Source: Calditrichota bacterium (GTDB lineage Bacteria > Calditrichota > Calditrichia > RBG-13-44-9 > J042). Taken from it: 64,000 nucleotides of DNA. The notes under the pieces were generated by a model. It was not told the DNA's origin and did no database searches. It was given only the letters and a program-made list of their open reading frames with translations. The stretch spans positions 1 through 64,000 of the forward strand of contig JAADJD010000005.1 of NCBI GenBank assembly GCA_013150955.1, read 5' to 3'. A program made the position numbers and the translations under genes. Positions 57,658-64,000 of the stretch are shown piece by piece (the stretch's first letter is position 1; the number at the start of each line of letters is the position of its first letter).

Positions 57658-57880
57658 TTAAACCCGGATTTTACATTCGCCTGCGAATTACAAGAATTCA
57701 CACGAACCAAAAGAATGAAATGCATTTGATGCAATCAGGATGAAAATGGGGTCCAGGGTTTGGTAGGTGGTTTGTTAATCCCAAATTATGCTTTGAACCT
57801 CAATTGACGCGAATGAACACAAATAAACCCAGATTATGCATAAGACCACGAATTGCACGAATTCACACAAATAAAATTAA
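57658..57880. repeat. Dispersed palindromic intergenic element, copy 6, rearranged
   Basis: The segments 'TTCGCCTGCGAATTACAAGA', 'GATGAAAATGGGGTCCAGGG', 'AATCCCAAATTATGC' and 'CCAGATTATGCATAAGACCA' are recognisable in the same order or inverted relative to other copies. At least two ends are joined, so this is a compound or degraded copy. It starts 13 bp after tpiA. Confidence 0.65.
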
Positions 57881-58198: not shown

Positions 58199-58216
58199 TT
58201 GGCATAATTTGTGCAA
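58199..58216 (+). promoter_or_regulatory. Candidate sigma-54 promoter of the two-component operon
   Basis: TTGGCATAATTTGTGCAA has GG (58201-58202) and GC (58213-58214) separated by exactly 10 bp, the invariant sigma-54 spacing. The -24 element TTGGCA is perfect, and the -12 element GTGC differs from TTGC at one base. The predicted start is near 58226, 18 bp before the kinase ATG. Confidence 0.65.
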
Positions 58217-58243: not shown

Positions 58244-59764
58244 ATGGACTTTCGCCGATTGGGATTGAAATACCGTTTCATCGTTATCACCATTGCCGTG
58301 GTGGTACTGGTAACCCTGGCGGGTAGCCTGACCCTCCACGGGATATATCGCGCGGGTGGCAATGTGTACCGCCCGGAATATTTGATGGCAGTGGCCGCTT
58401 TTTATATCTTCATTGGGATCATCGGGGTGTTGCTGGTTTCCAAATACATGATCCAGCCGGTCGTGCATCTCACCCAGAAGGTGTACGAGGTGCGCAATGG
58501 GAACCTGGACATCGAGTTTTCCAACCATCAGAATCACGTGTGGATGGATGAAATGGATCAATTGTACGAGGGATTTGCCCACATGGTGCGCCATCTGCGG
58601 CAGACCATCGAAGAGTTGACCAAGGCAAAGGAACGGGCCGAAACCGTTTCCCGCGAACTTTACAAAAGTAAAAAACGCCTGGAGGCGGTATTTAACAGCC
58701 TGTCTGACGGCATCATGATTATTGACAAGAACTTTCGGATTGTGACGGCCAATCCGGTTATCCTGAAACTGATGGGCCGCACGGAGGAAGAAATCAAAGG
58801 AAAACACTGTTTTGAGATGTGCAACGGTAGCCTGCGGCGTTGCCAGTTCTGTCGGGCGACGGATACGTTCCGCTTTGGCGAGCACGAGATTACCTATTGC
58901 ACCAAACCCGATCCATCGGGGAAGGGCGACCGCATTCTGGAAGTCCACGATTTTCCCATGTTCGATGAAAATGGCGAGATTGTGCAAATCATTGAGTATG
59001 TCAAGGATGTAACCGATGCCATGCAAATGCAGGCCAAGCTGGAAAGTTCGCGGCGGCTGGCGGAGATTGGGGAAATGGCCGCCAAAGTGGCGCATGAGGT
59101 GCGCAATCCACTGAACGCCATCAAAGGCGCGACCCATTATTTGCGGGGGGAGATTCAGGAGGAATCGGTGGCTATGTATCTGGATTTGATCGAGGAACAG
59201 GTGGATCGAGTAAATCGGGTGGCCACGGATTTACTGGGATTGGCGCGTCCCCTGGAACCGGTTTTTCATCCGGGCAATCTGGAGAAAGTGATTCGACAGG
59301 CCTTGTGGGATACCCAGCAGGCACTGGACGATAAGCAGATTCGGGTGAAAACGCATATCCATCCCAATATCCCCGAAATTCCCCTGGATGAAAATCAGAT
59401 TGAGCAGGCGCTGGTAAATTTAATTTTAAATGCGGTGGATGCCATGGAAGAAGGGGGGCAGTTGACCATCGAACTGAAGTCCCTTTGTGGAGGAAACGGC
59501 ATGCGGGGGGAACATTTGCAGCTGGTGATTGCCGATACCGGTTGTGGCATCCCCGCCGAAACGCGTGAACAGATTTTCCAGCCGTTTTTTACCACCAAAA
59601 TAAAGGGAACCGGTCTGGGACTTACCATTGTGAAGAAAATTGTGGAACACCATCAGGGACAAATTGAAATTGAAAGCGAGGAAAATCAGGGAACCCGGGT
59701 GATCATTCGGTTGCCGTTAAACATCCGTCACCATGAAGCCAAAATTTACAATTTTAGTAGTTGA
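58244..59764 (+). CDS. PAS-containing sensor histidine kinase (NtrB/AtoS-like)
   Basis: A 506-residue membrane kinase. It has two membrane helices (about 11-32 and 47-66) with only a short outside loop, a HAMP linker ([20 protein letters not shown]), and a coiled linker. The PAS domain (about 148-262) contains four cysteines, Cys189, Cys193, Cys200 and Cys203 ([16 protein letters not shown]), then HisKA with His284 in [17 protein letters not shown] and a full HATPase ([34 protein letters not shown]). The tiny periplasmic loop and cysteine-rich PAS suggest internal redox, metal or sulfur-species sensing (inference). ATG 58244 has GAGGGG at the right distance. Its last 32 bp overlap the regulator gene. 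Confidence 0.92.
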
Positions 59765-61133
59765 TGACGAAGAGCCCATCCTTCGGGTCATGGAAGCCAA
59801 TCTGGTGCGGGAGGGTTACGAGGTAAAAACCGCCCGCGACGCGACCACAGCACTTCAGATCCTGCAACAGGATCAGGTGAGCACGGTGATTGTAGACTAC
59901 CTGATGCCGGGGATGAATGGCATTGAAATGATTCAGCGCATGAAGGAGATGCAGCTGGATGTGCCCGTCATTGTGGTCACCGCGTACGGTACGATTGAAC
60001 AGGCCGTACAGGCCATGAAGCTGGGGGCATTTAATTATCTGACCAAGCCCATCAATTACGATGAGTTGATTTCCATTGTTAAAAAGGCAGTGGAGCAGCA
60101 TGCGCTGGCGCTGGAGGTGCAGCGGTTGCGACAGGAGATTACCTCGCAGTACGGATTCGATCAGATTGTGGGGCAAAATCAAAAGATGCAGGAGATCTTC
60201 TCGCTGGTGCGGGATGTGGCAGAAACCGATGCCACGGTGCTGATCCGCGGTGAAACCGGTACCGGAAAAGAGCTCATTGCCCGGGCACTGCATTTCAATA
60301 GTCCACGGAAAAATAAACCTTTCGTGCGGGTGAATTGTCCCGCCATTGCAGAAACCTTGCTGGAGAGCGAGCTATTTGGCCACGAAAAAGGCGCGTTCAC
60401 CGGGGCGATCAAGACGCGCATCGGACGCTTTGAGCAGGCCGATGGTGGCACCATATTTCTGGATGAAGTGGGCGATTTGCCCCTTCGCATCCAGTCGAAA
60501 TTGTTGCGGGTGCTGCAGGAAAAGGAGTTTGAACGGGTTGGGGGCAATAAAACCATCAAGGTGGATGTGCGCATCATTTCCGCCACCAATAAGGATCTGG
60601 AGGCAGAAGTGCAGGCCGGAAATTTTCGCCAGGATTTGTTTTACCGGCTGAATGTGGTGCCCATTGTGGTGCCGCCATTACGTGAGCGACCGGATGACAT
60701 CCCCCTGCTGGCCATGCATTTTTTGAAAAAATATGCCCGCCGATTCAACAAACCGGTTCATGAGATTTCTCCAGAAGGCATGGCGCTGCTGGTGGAACAG
60801 CCCTGGCCGGGAAATGTACGCCAGCTGGAAAATGTGATTGAACGGGCCATTATTCTGGAGAAAAGTGAACAACTACAACGGGATACCCTGCTCCGCTGCC
60901 TGGAATATAAACCCACCAATCTCTATTCCTTTCCCATCAATGCCCGTAAGCCCTTGAAAGAATTAAAAGAACAGCTGATTGAAAATTTCGAGAAGGAATA
61001 CATCATCACCCTGTTGAAAGAGTTCAAGGGAAATATCAGCGCGGCTGCACGGGCATCGGGGATTCACTACAAAAATTTTTACGAGAAAATGCGCAAGTAC
61101 AATATCCGCCGGGGGGATTATCAGGAGGAATGA
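59733..61133 (+). CDS. NtrC-family sigma-54-dependent response regulator
   Basis: A 466-residue enhancer-binding protein. The receiver domain has DDE at 11-13, phospho-acceptor Asp55 (VIVDYLMPGMNG) and the Thr and Lys switch residues in VVTAYG and YLTKPI. The AAA+ domain has Walker A GETGTGKE (173-180), the sigma-54 contact loop GAFTGA (220-225) and Walker B GGTIFLDEVGDLP. The C-terminal Fis-type HTH is GNISAAARASGIHYKNFYEK. It activates sigma-54 RNA polymerase. The matching promoter and dyad sites lie in the 535-bp gap downstream, before the sulfur-relay genes. Confidence 0.95.
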   Translation: MKPKFTILVVDDEEPILRVMEANLVREGYEVKTARDATTALQILQQDQVSTVIVDYLMPGMNGIEMIQRMKEMQLDVPVIVVTAYGTIEQAVQAMKLGAFNYLTKPINYDELISIVKKAVEQHALALEVQRLRQEITSQYGFDQIVGQNQKMQEIFSLVRDVAETDATVLIRGETGTGKELIARALHFNSPRKNKPFVRVNCPAIAETLLESELFGHEKGAFTGAIKTRIGRFEQADGGTIFLDEVGDLPLRIQSKLLRVLQEKEFERVGGNKTIKVDVRIISATNKDLEAEVQAGNFRQDLFYRLNVVPIVVPPLRERPDDIPLLAMHFLKKYARRFNKPVHEISPEGMALLVEQPWPGNVRQLENVIERAIILEKSEQLQRDTLLRCLEYKPTNLYSFPINARKPLKELKEQLIENFEKEYIITLLKEFKGNISAAARASGIHYKNFYEKMRKYNIRRGDYQEE

Positions 61134-61226
61134 CCCCGGTCGATTTGCCCATCGGTCGAACAATGAATCTTTATCCACCAATCAGAAACTCCCTTCGCAG
61201 GGCATGCTGAGGTGTTTGCAATTATG

Positions 61227-61413
61227 CCAGATTATGCATTAGCCTACGAATTACACGAATTAACACCAATAAAAATAATAAAATGCACTGGATTCTATCT
61301 GGATGAAAATGTTTTCCATGAAAATGTTTTCCCGGATATATTCGCTATTTTATTGATTTTTTTCGAATTCATTCGCGTGATTCGTGGTTTAACGCTCTAT
61401 TTGGGATTATGCC
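61227..61413. repeat. Dispersed palindromic intergenic element, copy 7
   Basis: It runs from 'CCAGATTATGCATTAGCC' and 'TACGAATTACACGAATTAAC' to 'TTCATTCGCGTGATTCGTGG' and 'TTTGGGATTATGCC', with imperfect inverted ends and the central GGATGAAAATGTTTTCC partly duplicated. An 88-codon frame across it is not credible as a gene. It lies between the response regulator and the upstream sites of the sulfur operon. Confidence 0.75.
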
Positions 61414-61465: not shown

Positions 61466-61519
61466 TTATGGTATTTAGGTTATAACGCCGGTGCCATAAT
61501 TATGGTAAAAATACCATAA
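61466..61519 (+). promoter_or_regulatory. Candidate upstream activator binding sites (two dyads) for the sigma-54 promoter
   Basis: Four copies of one 8-bp half site lie in alternating orientation: TTATGGTA (61466-61473), TGCCATAA (61492-61499), TTATGGTA (61500-61507) and TACCATAA (61512-61519). The last two form a perfect dyad with four A between; the first two form a nearly perfect dyad with wider spacing. The array ends 110 bp before the -24 element, normal for enhancer sites of NtrC-type activators. The obvious ligand is the regulator encoded just upstream (inference). Confidence 0.65.
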
Positions 61520-61628
61520 CTGTTGGATCGATGGAAACCCGCCTGAATGATCCGTTTTACTTGCAAATTCTATAAAATTTCAGGGGAATCCGTTTATAGA
61601 GTGAAATATTTCACGAATGTGAAAATTC

Positions 61629-61644
61629 TGGAACGCCGTTTGCA
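61629..61644 (+). promoter_or_regulatory. Sigma-54 promoter of the sulfur-relay operon
   Basis: CTGGAACGCCGTTTGCA matches the consensus YTGGCACG-N4-TTGCA at all but one base (A for C in the -24 box). GG (61630-61631) and GC (61642-61643) are exactly 10 bp apart. The predicted start near 61655 lies 14 bp before the first gene, leaving just enough room for AGGAGG. Confidence 0.8.
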
Positions 61645-61668
61645 CATCACCGGGGCCAGGAGGAAAGG

Positions 61669-61902
61669 ATGAATCTGGTCGTCAGTAAAAAACTGGATTG
61701 TCGCTGGATGTACACCCCTCTGGCGGTGGTGCATCTGTATTTTGCTTTTCGGGAAATGCGTTCGGGAGAAATCATTGAATTGCTCATCAACAACGAGGAG
61801 AGTCATGCGGACGTGCAGAGCTGGAGCCGCATGACCGGAAATCCCATTCTGCAGGTGCGCGACAAACAGGAGCACCTGAGCCTATTTGTTCAAAAAAAAT
61901 AA
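61669..61902 (+). CDS. TusA/SirA-fold protein lacking the catalytic cysteine
   Basis: A 77-residue protein that aligns over its whole length with the TusA encoded next. Its N-terminal segment KKLDCRWMYTPLAVVHLY matches TLDCSGLLCPMPVVKTN, but the sulfur-carrying Cys of the CPxP motif is Thr16 and the second Pro is Ala. The earlier Cys11 is shared by both. The MRSGEIIELLINNEESHADV strand-helix matches LKVGEVLEMIATDPGSIPD. It cannot act as an ordinary persulfide carrier. A structural partner of TusA or a sensor role is possible. It is the first gene after the sigma-54 promoter, with AGGAGGAAAGG upstream. Confidence 0.7.
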   Translation: MNLVVSKKLDCRWMYTPLAVVHLYFAFREMRSGEIIELLINNEESHADVQSWSRMTGNPILQVRDKQEHLSLFVQKK

Positions 61903-61913
61903 TGGAGGAAGCA

Positions 61914-62153
61914 ATGGCAGATATCCCAATTGCGGAAACCCTGGATTGTAGCGGCCTGCTGTGTCCCATGCCGGTCGTCAAAACCAACAAGGCCATAAAA
62001 AATCTGAAAGTGGGGGAAGTACTGGAAATGATCGCCACCGATCCCGGATCCATTCCCGATATGGAGGCATGGGCCAAGCAAACCGGTCATGAGCTTCTGG
62101 AGGCAAAAGAAGAAGGGGGCAAGTACCGCTTTTTGATTAAGAAGACCCACTGA
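61914..62153 (+). CDS. tusA: TusA-family sulfur carrier protein
   Basis: A 79-residue protein with the intact CPxP motif in LDCSGLLCPMPVVKT, where Cys17 carries the persulfide, and the TusA beta-alpha core (GEVLEMIATDPGSIPDMEAW). TusA proteins hand sulfur between desulfurases or DsrE-type transferases and acceptors in tRNA thiolation, cofactor synthesis or dissimilatory sulfur metabolism. The ATG at 61914 is preferred (GGAGG five bases upstream) over the ATG at 61902 that overlaps the previous stop. Confidence 0.92.
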   Translation: MADIPIAETLDCSGLLCPMPVVKTNKAIKNLKVGEVLEMIATDPGSIPDMEAWAKQTGHELLEAKEEGGKYRFLIKKTH

Positions 62154-62265: not shown

Positions 62266-62778
62266 ATGTCGGAGAAAAACGGACGTCGTCGTTTAGCGAT
62301 AATTGCCAGCAAGGGGACGCTGGACTGGGCATACCCGCCCTTTATTCTGGCCACAGCTGCAGGGGCCATGAACTGGGAGGTGGCCATTTTCTTTACGTTT
62401 TACGGGTTGCCCCTGCTGAAGAAGAAGCTGGATGCTTCGGTCAGTCCACTGGGGAATCCCGCCATGCCCATGAAGATGCCCTTTGGGCCGCTGGAAAAAA
62501 TTGATTTGCCGATTCCCAATCTGATCATGAGCAATGTGCCTGGATTCCAGCAGATGGCCACTGCATTGATGAAGAAAACCTTCAAGAAAAAAGGGGTGGC
62601 CAGCATTGAGGAATTGCGCGATATGGCCGTGGAAATGGACGTGCGGCTCATTGGCTGTCAGATGACCATGGACGTCTTTGGGTTCAAAAAGGAAGATTTT
62701 ATTGACGAGGCCGAAATTGGTGGAGCGGCCACATTTCTGGAATTTGCCGCCGACGCCAATGTTACCCTGTTTATTTGA
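62266..62778 (+). CDS. DsrE2-type (DsrE/DsrF/DrsH-like) sulfurtransferase-family protein
   Basis: A 170-residue protein. It begins RRRLAIIASKGTLDWAYPPFILATAAGAM and continues WEVAIFFTFYGLPLLKKKL, a family signature. A single conserved Cys131 lies in LIGCQMTMDVFG, where DsrE-type proteins bind sulfur. Hydrophobic stretches suggest membrane association, as in DsrE2. In sulfur-metabolising prokaryotes dsrE2-tusA pairs lie together and exchange persulfide sulfur. The gene follows tusA after 112 bp. Confidence 0.87.
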   Translation: MSEKNGRRRLAIIASKGTLDWAYPPFILATAAGAMNWEVAIFFTFYGLPLLKKKLDASVSPLGNPAMPMKMPFGPLEKIDLPIPNLIMSNVPGFQQMATALMKKTFKKKGVASIEELRDMAVEMDVRLIGCQMTMDVFGFKKEDFIDEAEIGGAATFLEFAADANVTLFI

Positions 62779-62815
62779 AACAAAGCACAATGGTCAATAA
62801 ATGAAAGGGGCGTTT

Positions 62816-63910
62816 GTGGACAGGAAAAAACCATTGCGTTTAATCGATGCCGGAACCATTCCGTATCTGGAATCTCAGACTATTTATCACGCCGTGGCCC
62901 ATGCCATGACCCCGGAAACGCCGGACACTGCCATCCTGGTCAGTCCCCAAACTCCGTACGTTTGCGTGGGATTCCATCAGGAGGTAGATCGTGAAGTGGA
63001 TCTGGAATATTGTCAGGCGCATCAGATTCCGGTTACCCGTCGTGAGGTAGGCGGTGGGGCGGTGCTTCTGGATGCCAATCAAATTTTTACTCAATGGGTG
63101 TTTCAGCCCGATCATGTTCCCCTGAAAGTGGTGGATCGGTTTCGGTTGCATGCGGAACCCATCATGGCCACTTATCGGGATTTTGGGGTGGAAGCCAATT
63201 TCCGGCCCATTAATGACATTCACGTAAGCGGGAAAAAGATTGGGGGCATGGGGGCAGCAGCCATTGGCAATGCAGAGGTCGTGGTCAGCTCGCTGATGCT
63301 GGATTTCGATACCCGGACCATGGCCCGGGTGTTGAAAGTACCCAACGAGAAGTTCCGGGATAAGGTCTTTCAGGGACTGGAAAACTACATGACCACCCTG
63401 AAAAAAGAGCTGGGGCAGATGCCGGATCGGGACGAAGTGAAACAACACTACGTCCGGCATCTGGAAGAGGTTTTGCAGCGGCCGGTCGAGTGGGGTGAGT
63501 TGACTCCTGGCGAAAAGGAGGTCATGGCCCAGTTAAATGCCCGCTTTGCCACCCGGGAATGGTTGTACCAGAAAGGTGGGCTGGTTCGAGGCGCCGTGAA
63601 GATCCACAGCGGTGTATGGGTGGGGGAAACGGCTTACAAGGCACCCGGTGGCCTGATTCGCATCACGCTCCGCATCCGGGAAAATACCATCGATGACCTG
63701 GCCATTTCCGGGGACTTCACGTTTTATCCGCAACATCAGCTGGCGGCCTTCGAGGCCTTTTTGAAGGGCCATTCTCTGGAACCCGCCACCCTGCGGCGTA
63801 CCATCGAGGCATTCTACCAGGAAACGGGCGTGCAAACACCGGGCATCGAAGTTGACCACTGGCTGACGGTTTTTGGTCAGCTGGCGGATGCGGTGGCAAA
63901 ACACAGTTGA
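62816..63910 (+). CDS. Lipoate-protein ligase A family enzyme
   Basis: A protein of about 364 residues of the biotin/lipoate ligase fold. It has TRREVGGGAVLLDANQIFTQ, NDIHVSGKKIGGMGAAAIGN (the lysine contacts lipoyl-AMP) and a full C-terminal LplA accessory domain (ARFATREWLYQKGGLVRGAV). It attaches lipoate to an acceptor protein. The neighbours TusA and DsrE2 recall gene sets in which a dedicated lipoate ligase serves the lipoate-binding protein of the heterodisulfide-reductase-like sulfur oxidation system; that link is inferred. The GTG at 62816 (AAAGGGG five bases upstream) is preferred to the ATG at 62801. Confidence 0.88.
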   Translation: MDRKKPLRLIDAGTIPYLESQTIYHAVAHAMTPETPDTAILVSPQTPYVCVGFHQEVDREVDLEYCQAHQIPVTRREVGGGAVLLDANQIFTQWVFQPDHVPLKVVDRFRLHAEPIMATYRDFGVEANFRPINDIHVSGKKIGGMGAAAIGNAEVVVSSLMLDFDTRTMARVLKVPNEKFRDKVFQGLENYMTTLKKELGQMPDRDEVKQHYVRHLEEVLQRPVEWGELTPGEKEVMAQLNARFATREWLYQKGGLVRGAVKIHSGVWVGETAYKAPGGLIRITLRIRENTIDDLAISGDFTFYPQHQLAAFEAFLKGHSLEPATLRRTIEAFYQETGVQTPGIEVDHWLTVFGQLADAVAKHS

Positions 63911-63914
63911 GTCC

Positions 63915-64000
63915 GTGAATGCATGGGAGAACAAAATACTGGGACTCCGAGAACTCAGCGAGATGTACCTGCAGGAAGCCGGAAAGTGGGTGTTGCTGGA
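63915..64000 (+). CDS. Start of a further gene cut by the window edge (partial, unidentified)
   Basis: From a GTG 5 bp after the lplA stop an open frame runs to the end (MNAWENKILGLRELSEMY, then LQEAGKWVLL). Its amphipathic, helix-like sequence and genome-typical codons (CTG, GAG, GCC) favour it over the alternative frame starting at ATG 63923. There is no clear ribosome-binding site, so the true start may lie a little further on. No family can be named from 28 residues. Confidence 0.4.
   Translation, partial: MNAWENKILGLRELSEMYLQEAGKWVLL

Follow-up and report, generated by a model that had tools for sequence, protein, structure and literature searches.

The question raised by this locus is whether a kinase and an NtrC-type regulator control the sulfur operon behind them. 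The window, a stretch of 64,000 nucleotides (G000:C40:1-64000), is part of a 4.07-Mb genome in 66 contigs. The kinase/regulator pair (58244-61133) is separated by a gap of 535 bp from the operon that starts at 61669, and in this gap a half-site (61466), two abutting 20-mers (61480-61519), a -24/-12 box (61629-61644) and the ATG (61669) follow one another (Table 1). RpoN is encoded in this genome (G000:C29, E=1.7e-61) as well as in G001 and G003; it was not found in G002, the assembly of which is incomplete.

Table 1. Features of the pair, the gap and the beginning of the operon (positions in the window).
Feature	Position	Strand	Basis
Second, weaker -24/-12-like box TGGCATAATTTGTGCA, 28 bp 5' of kinase start	58200..58215	+	9/12 positions
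Sensor histidine kinase: two TM helices (by eye), linker, PAS, HisKA, HATPase_c	58244..59764	+	Pfam; 12-way alignment
NtrC-type response regulator: receiver, GAFTGA AAA+ (Sigma54_activat), Fis-type HTH (HTH_8), helix HYKNFYEKM	59733..61133	+	Pfam; alignments; clade
Extra TTATGGTA half-site	61466..61473	+	Kept in G001 and G003, absent in f6 and KSB1
Predicted activator site 1, TTATAACGCCGGTGCCATAA, left half degenerate, abuts site 2	61480..61499	+	20-bp register
Predicted activator site 2, perfect 20-bp dyad TTATGGTAAAAATACCATAA	61500..61519	+	Uniqueness, conservation, paired change in G003
Putative sigma-54 -24/-12 promoter TGGAACGCCGTTTGCA	61629..61644	+	Consensus score, shuffles, genome count, conservation; equivalents in 11 related loci
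Shine-Dalgarno AGGAGG	61658..61663	+	Sequence
TusA-like protein, CPxP cysteine absent (LDCRWMYTPL), first gene	61669..61902	+	Pfam TusA 3.4e-11; alignment
TusA sulfur carrier (LDCSGLLCPMPVV)	61914..62153	+	Pfam 2.7e-28
DsrE2 sulfur carrier	62266..62778	+	NCBIfam SulfCarrDsrE2 220 bits, cut-off 210
Lipoate-protein ligase, sHdr type (sLpl) by context	62801..63910	+	Pfam LplA-B_cat; context
Rest of operon, start approximate, runs past window	63925..64000	+	Locus L025

The array had been described in a sequence-only reading as four 8-bp half-sites forming two dyads. The half-sites are real: TTATGGTA occurs at 61466-61473 and again at 61500-61507, TGCCATAA (one mismatch) at 61492-61499 and TACCATAA at 61512-61519. 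The unit, however, had to be redefined after comparison of 12 loci as a 20-bp site, TTATGG-N8-CCATAA with the core GGT-N6-RCC, present in two abutting copies, to which the half-site at 61466 is an extra. This 20-bp register of sites 1 and 2 was repeated in G001, G003, G002 and six f6 genomes. The dyad TTATGGTA-N4-TACCATAA was unique in the genome at 0 mismatches, the next best match having 3, and none of 2000 shuffles of this gap produced a match to it. The end of the array lies 109 bp from the -24/-12 box.

The 12 loci belong to the families f1 (G000-G003) and f6 (six genomes), both of one class, and to two KSB1 MAGs (L067 and L068), which were found by scanning named genomes with a lipoate ligase alignment; being related, these genomes do not count as independent, and several are represented by incomplete MAGs. 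Loss of the dyads and the box at related loci had been stated beforehand as the outcome that would count against the proposal. Both were conserved where the flanking DNA had diverged: in G001 (same genus) and G003, which have array and box in the same register as the window, identity to the window was 84-86% in the array and 84-89% in the box versus 22-38% in the flanks (upstream and middle stretches). In site 2 of G003, CTATGG...CCATAG, both halves have changed in such a way that the symmetry is retained. G002 contains TTATGGCAAACAGACCATAA and TGGAACGAAGTTTGCA and is the outlier in spacing, with the site about 350 bp upstream of the box. In the f6 genomes two GGT-N6-RCC sites are found 20 bp apart, the first beginning at the stop codon of the regulator, and in L067 and L068 kinase, regulator, dyad and box follow in order. 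Altogether, each of the 12 loci has, ahead of its tusA gene, a -24-like box and the dyad motif with 0-3 mismatches; the single-region p values were 0-0.19 for the dyad, the weak dyad of G031 (3 mismatches) giving the 0.19, and 0.0005-0.046 for the box. At the level of sequence this confirmed that the array and the -24/-12 box are real elements beyond chance.

As had been read from the sequence, a GAFTGA-bearing activator is encoded directly upstream of the gap and is itself preceded by its kinase. The regulator stayed below the NCBIfam cut-offs of the named subfamilies AtoC (500 against 714 bits), NtrC (468 against 558.6 bits), NtrX and ZraR. A kinase/GAFTGA-activator pair of one clade was found upstream in 11 of the 12 loci; in a quick tree the linked regulators formed one group with full support, and they have in common the recognition helix [HD]YKNF..KM, in which 12 paralogs from G000-G003 differ. 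The ortholog in G002 (66%) is located on a different contig from the operon. As the ends of these two contigs have 99 identical bases in common, it would lie about four genes upstream of the operon. No orthologous regulator was detected in G003 (86% complete assembly), where the best HTH match had an E-value of 8.9e-11, compared with 4e-32 or better elsewhere.

The occurrence of the regulator was compared with that of the operon in 40 genomes of the phylum. A 62-position HTH profile found the regulator in 10 of them at E<=4e-32, followed by a gap to 1e-18. sHdrC1 was present in 9 of the 40, to which G023 is to be added since its contig ends within the operon before sHdrC1. The overlap was 9, i.e. 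9 of 10 each way (Fisher p=3.6e-7, uncorrected for kinship). The exceptions were G003, with the operon and no detected regulator, and G034, with the regulator pair and no sHdr. On one side of the pair in the latter (L177:959-8468) lie a molybdopterin oxidoreductase and an NrfD/DsrP-like membrane gene, on the other a SulP transporter, so that it is still beside candidate sulfur genes, which suggests that it has been reused for another sulfur step.

These exceptions would fit the idea that the dyads are operators for another transcription factor, a repressor or other activator, and that the NtrC-type pair controls something else, as G003 retains the sites without a detectable ortholog of the regulator and G034 the pair without sHdr. 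We consider this unlikely, because the clade of the regulator tracks the operon both ways and adjoins it directly in 10 loci, and because the sites are placed 100-350 bp upstream of the -24/-12 box, which is the position of an enhancer and not of an operator. Moreover, 41 other ligase loci (from Chloroflexi, Aminicenantes, deltaproteobacteria and others) contained no such regulator and gave no convincing site. A two-site model searched over the 40 genomes had strong matches only upstream of the ten sHdr operons, and these regions match by construction since the model was built from the loci that it then finds, KSB1 being the exception; all other matches had E>=0.05, so that no further targets were found in these genomes. 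The regulon of the circuit is probably this one operon. A match on the contig of the G034 regulator was considered as a target and rejected, as it falls in apparent coding sequence. When a held-out site model was applied to 44 loci, it found KSB1 L067 at the right place (E=0.0085), missed L068 and found none in the other 42.

The near-consensus promoter with one mismatch that had been proposed was recovered: TGGAACGCCGTTTGCA agrees with the consensus at 11 of 12 informative positions, has an exact GG-N10-GC and is conserved in the relatives. It stands 24 nt before the ATG. When the C of GC (61643) is taken as -12, transcription is predicted to start at about 61655, giving a 14-nt leader with the AGGAGG. 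The strict pattern YTGGMACRN4TTGCW had only 3 matches in the 4.07-Mb genome, and a match as good as TGGAACGCCGTTTGCA within 130 bp of the gene start was found in 0.15% of 2000 dinucleotide shuffles of the gap (p~0.0015). It could be argued that the -24/-12 match arose by chance and that an ordinary sigma-70 promoter drives the operon. At 2 mismatches the loose box pattern indeed occurs in the whole window at chance frequency (9 found, 10.3 expected), and a box alone at loose thresholds would carry no meaning; likewise, four f6 boxes (G020, G022, G023 and G035) have a degenerate -12 with TTGT or TTGA, not TTGC, the other f6 boxes being TGGTACACCATTTGCA (G021) and TGGTACATCTTTTGCA (G031). Against this stand the rarity of the strict match and the conservation of the box, which in three f1 genomes keeps its distance of 24 nt to the start codon while the neighbouring DNA drifts. 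In addition, sigma-70-like matches in the gap were not above those in shuffles and were situated far upstream. A sigma-70 promoter is therefore very unlikely to account for the locus. It is still less credible, to the point of being almost negligible, that the dyads belong to an RNA hairpin of the regulator gene, such as a terminator, instead of being protein sites. In favour are the position of site 1 in f6, directly next to the stop codon of the regulator, and the 8-bp stem into which the perfect dyad could fold, but no terminator was found, the stem is A+T-rich without a T tract, two phased copies are present and the dyads are kept in G003 and G002 despite a different upstream gene.

The box before the kinase gene has an equivalent in the sister species (TGGCACAATTTCTGCA, L059:5345-5360), in both cases without a dyad beside it, and such a box was not seen in G002 or in KSB1 L068. 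Its occurrence in both species of the genus is consistent with a pair that may itself be sigma-54 dependent.

The agreement of promoter type, enhancer spacing and regulator, from which a sigma-54 circuit had been put forward, has thus been strengthened by the conservation of sites and box and by the co-occurrence of regulator and operon. A dedicated two-component, sigma-54 activation circuit for the type II sHdr operon is very probably present. In such a circuit the membrane-anchored kinase would sense a signal via its cytoplasmic, cysteine-containing PAS domain and would phosphorylate the regulator, which, once activated, is predicted to assemble on the two abutting 20-bp sites and to loop to the sigma-54 RNA polymerase waiting at the box. 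Its GAFTGA ATPase would then open the promoter, and the putative operon from 61669 would be switched on. TusA and DsrE2 would carry sulfane sulfur to lipoylated LbpA and the sHdr complex, which presumably oxidises it toward sulfite, and the electrons would pass to EtfAB and a membrane Hdr/NarI-like protein.

The nature of the signal may be considered from the kinase. As only a short loop connects its two apparent TM helices, the kinase probably receives its signal in the cytoplasm or the membrane. Five cysteines of the PAS domain (C189-x3-C193-x6-C200-x2-C203 and C219) were invariant in 12 kinases, which makes this conserved domain a candidate sulfur or redox sensor. At E<=1e-6 the kinase carries the only copy of the domain in G000; G021 gave a single match and G017, a genome with no detected sHdrC1, gave none. 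In the PDB the domain had only distant relatives, the PAS domains of WalK and of a further kinase, and these gave no metal-site information. A conjecture is that the PAS cysteines respond to sulfane sulfur or to redox state. A wider proposal is tentative and leans to the doubtful side: the five-cysteine PAS kinase might be a new cytoplasmic sulfur or redox sensor (for sulfane sulfur or an Fe-S cluster) in a one-operon activator switch for type II sHdr, common to the phylum of the window and KSB1 by old descent or by transfer.

Regarding the target, the tusA, dsrE2 and lplA genes that had been named are present, but they are only the beginning of it: the gene order in L025 indicates that the target is the whole type II sHdr-LbpA cluster. 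The ligase is followed by a small ORF, DsrE, a GcvH/LbpA-like gene, HdrC1, HdrB1, HdrA, a hypothetical protein, a fused HdrCB (B3), EtfB, EtfA and a NarI/HdrD-like membrane protein. Type II sHdr is defined by shdrC1B1AHB3 and etfAB in one syntenic cluster (PMC11582611), and this arrangement was found here; in place of the authors' HMSS2 models, its genes were recognised from their domains, their order and their similarity. NCBIfam yields general GcvH models only for the GcvH/LbpA-like gene; its position in the cluster supports its assignment as LbpA. Gaps of 192 bp before etfB and 235 bp before the last gene leave space for further promoters, and no strong -24/-12 box was seen in them. In f6 the order is kinase-regulator-TusA-DsrE2-ligase-DsrE-LbpA, after which the sHdr genes follow in the same order where the contig permits. 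In the first gene, a TusA paralog, the CPxP cysteine has been exchanged (YTPL), and the motif is changed in a similar way in KSB1 (EPMP); f6 has no separate gene for this paralog. The paralog may assist TusA as a partner, either structurally or in regulation. Behind the fused HdrCB, G000 and G001 have etfBA, unlike G003 (L063:4743-1044, minus strand) and G002 (L062:10336-11732), in which a second GcvH-like gene is found, together with what, judged by eye, look like lipoate assembly genes. G003 also has a nitroreductase-like ORF, likewise named by eye only, between HdrC1 and HdrB1 (L063:9222-9878, minus strand).

No paper describing sigma-54 control of sHdr was found in the open-access literature. 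To this extent the suspected novelty holds; a sigma-54 two-component system that governs sulfur oxidation has a precedent in TspS/TspR, which controls sox (the sox-II cluster) in Acidithiobacillus caldus via TGTCCCAAATGGGACA (PMC6335251, PMC12194929). Compared by site and target, the two systems differ: the target of TspS/TspR is the periplasmic Sox and that of the window the cytoplasmic sHdr, TGTCCCAAATGGGACA is unlike TTATGG-N8-CCATAA, and the phylum is also a different one. No TGTCCCAAATGGGACA UAS before a sox cluster was found at the window locus. A histidine kinase and a GAFTGA regulator also adjoin the thiocyanate dehydrogenase cluster of Thioalkalivibrio (PMC5744179), which belongs to another sulfur-compound oxidation pathway and has a sensor with a GAF domain. 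The shdr-lbpA cluster of the alphaproteobacterium Hyphomicrobium denitrificans is controlled by the ArsR-type repressors sHdrR and SoxR (PMC12423496, PMC10451225). These sense sulfane sulfur by cysteines, which for the window is conjecture, and repress without kinase or sigma-54, whereas the window encodes a predicted activator and has the cysteines in the kinase PAS domain. ArsR-type sHdr regulators rarely adjoin shdr genes according to the authors (PMC12423496), and none was noticed among the ORFs read in the sHdr cluster of L025. The cluster resembles published type II sHdr systems in having shdrC1B1A-Hyp-B3, etfAB, an LbpA-like gene, ligase, TusA and DsrE together (PMC11582611). In the cited papers on these systems, and on LbpA and sLpl (PMC6067878, PMC10332631), neither an activator nor a sigma-54 promoter is described for type II; a difference of the cluster here is its first gene, a TusA paralog in which the CPxP cysteine is missing. 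The layout of kinase/activator, site and promoter in about a dozen related uncultured bacteria thus points to an activator-controlled version of a pathway for which only repressors were found described, and provides type II sHdr in such bacteria with a specific candidate activator, its site and its promoter. It also suggests that sulfur oxidation is under switch control in these cells.

Imperfect dispersed repeats around CACGAATT..CACGAATT also occur at 57659-57876, in the gap that precedes the kinase, and at 61221-61410, in the one preceding the array; one pair of them forms a 64-nt inverted repeat that is 70% complementary. They are possibly the remnant of a small mobile repeat.
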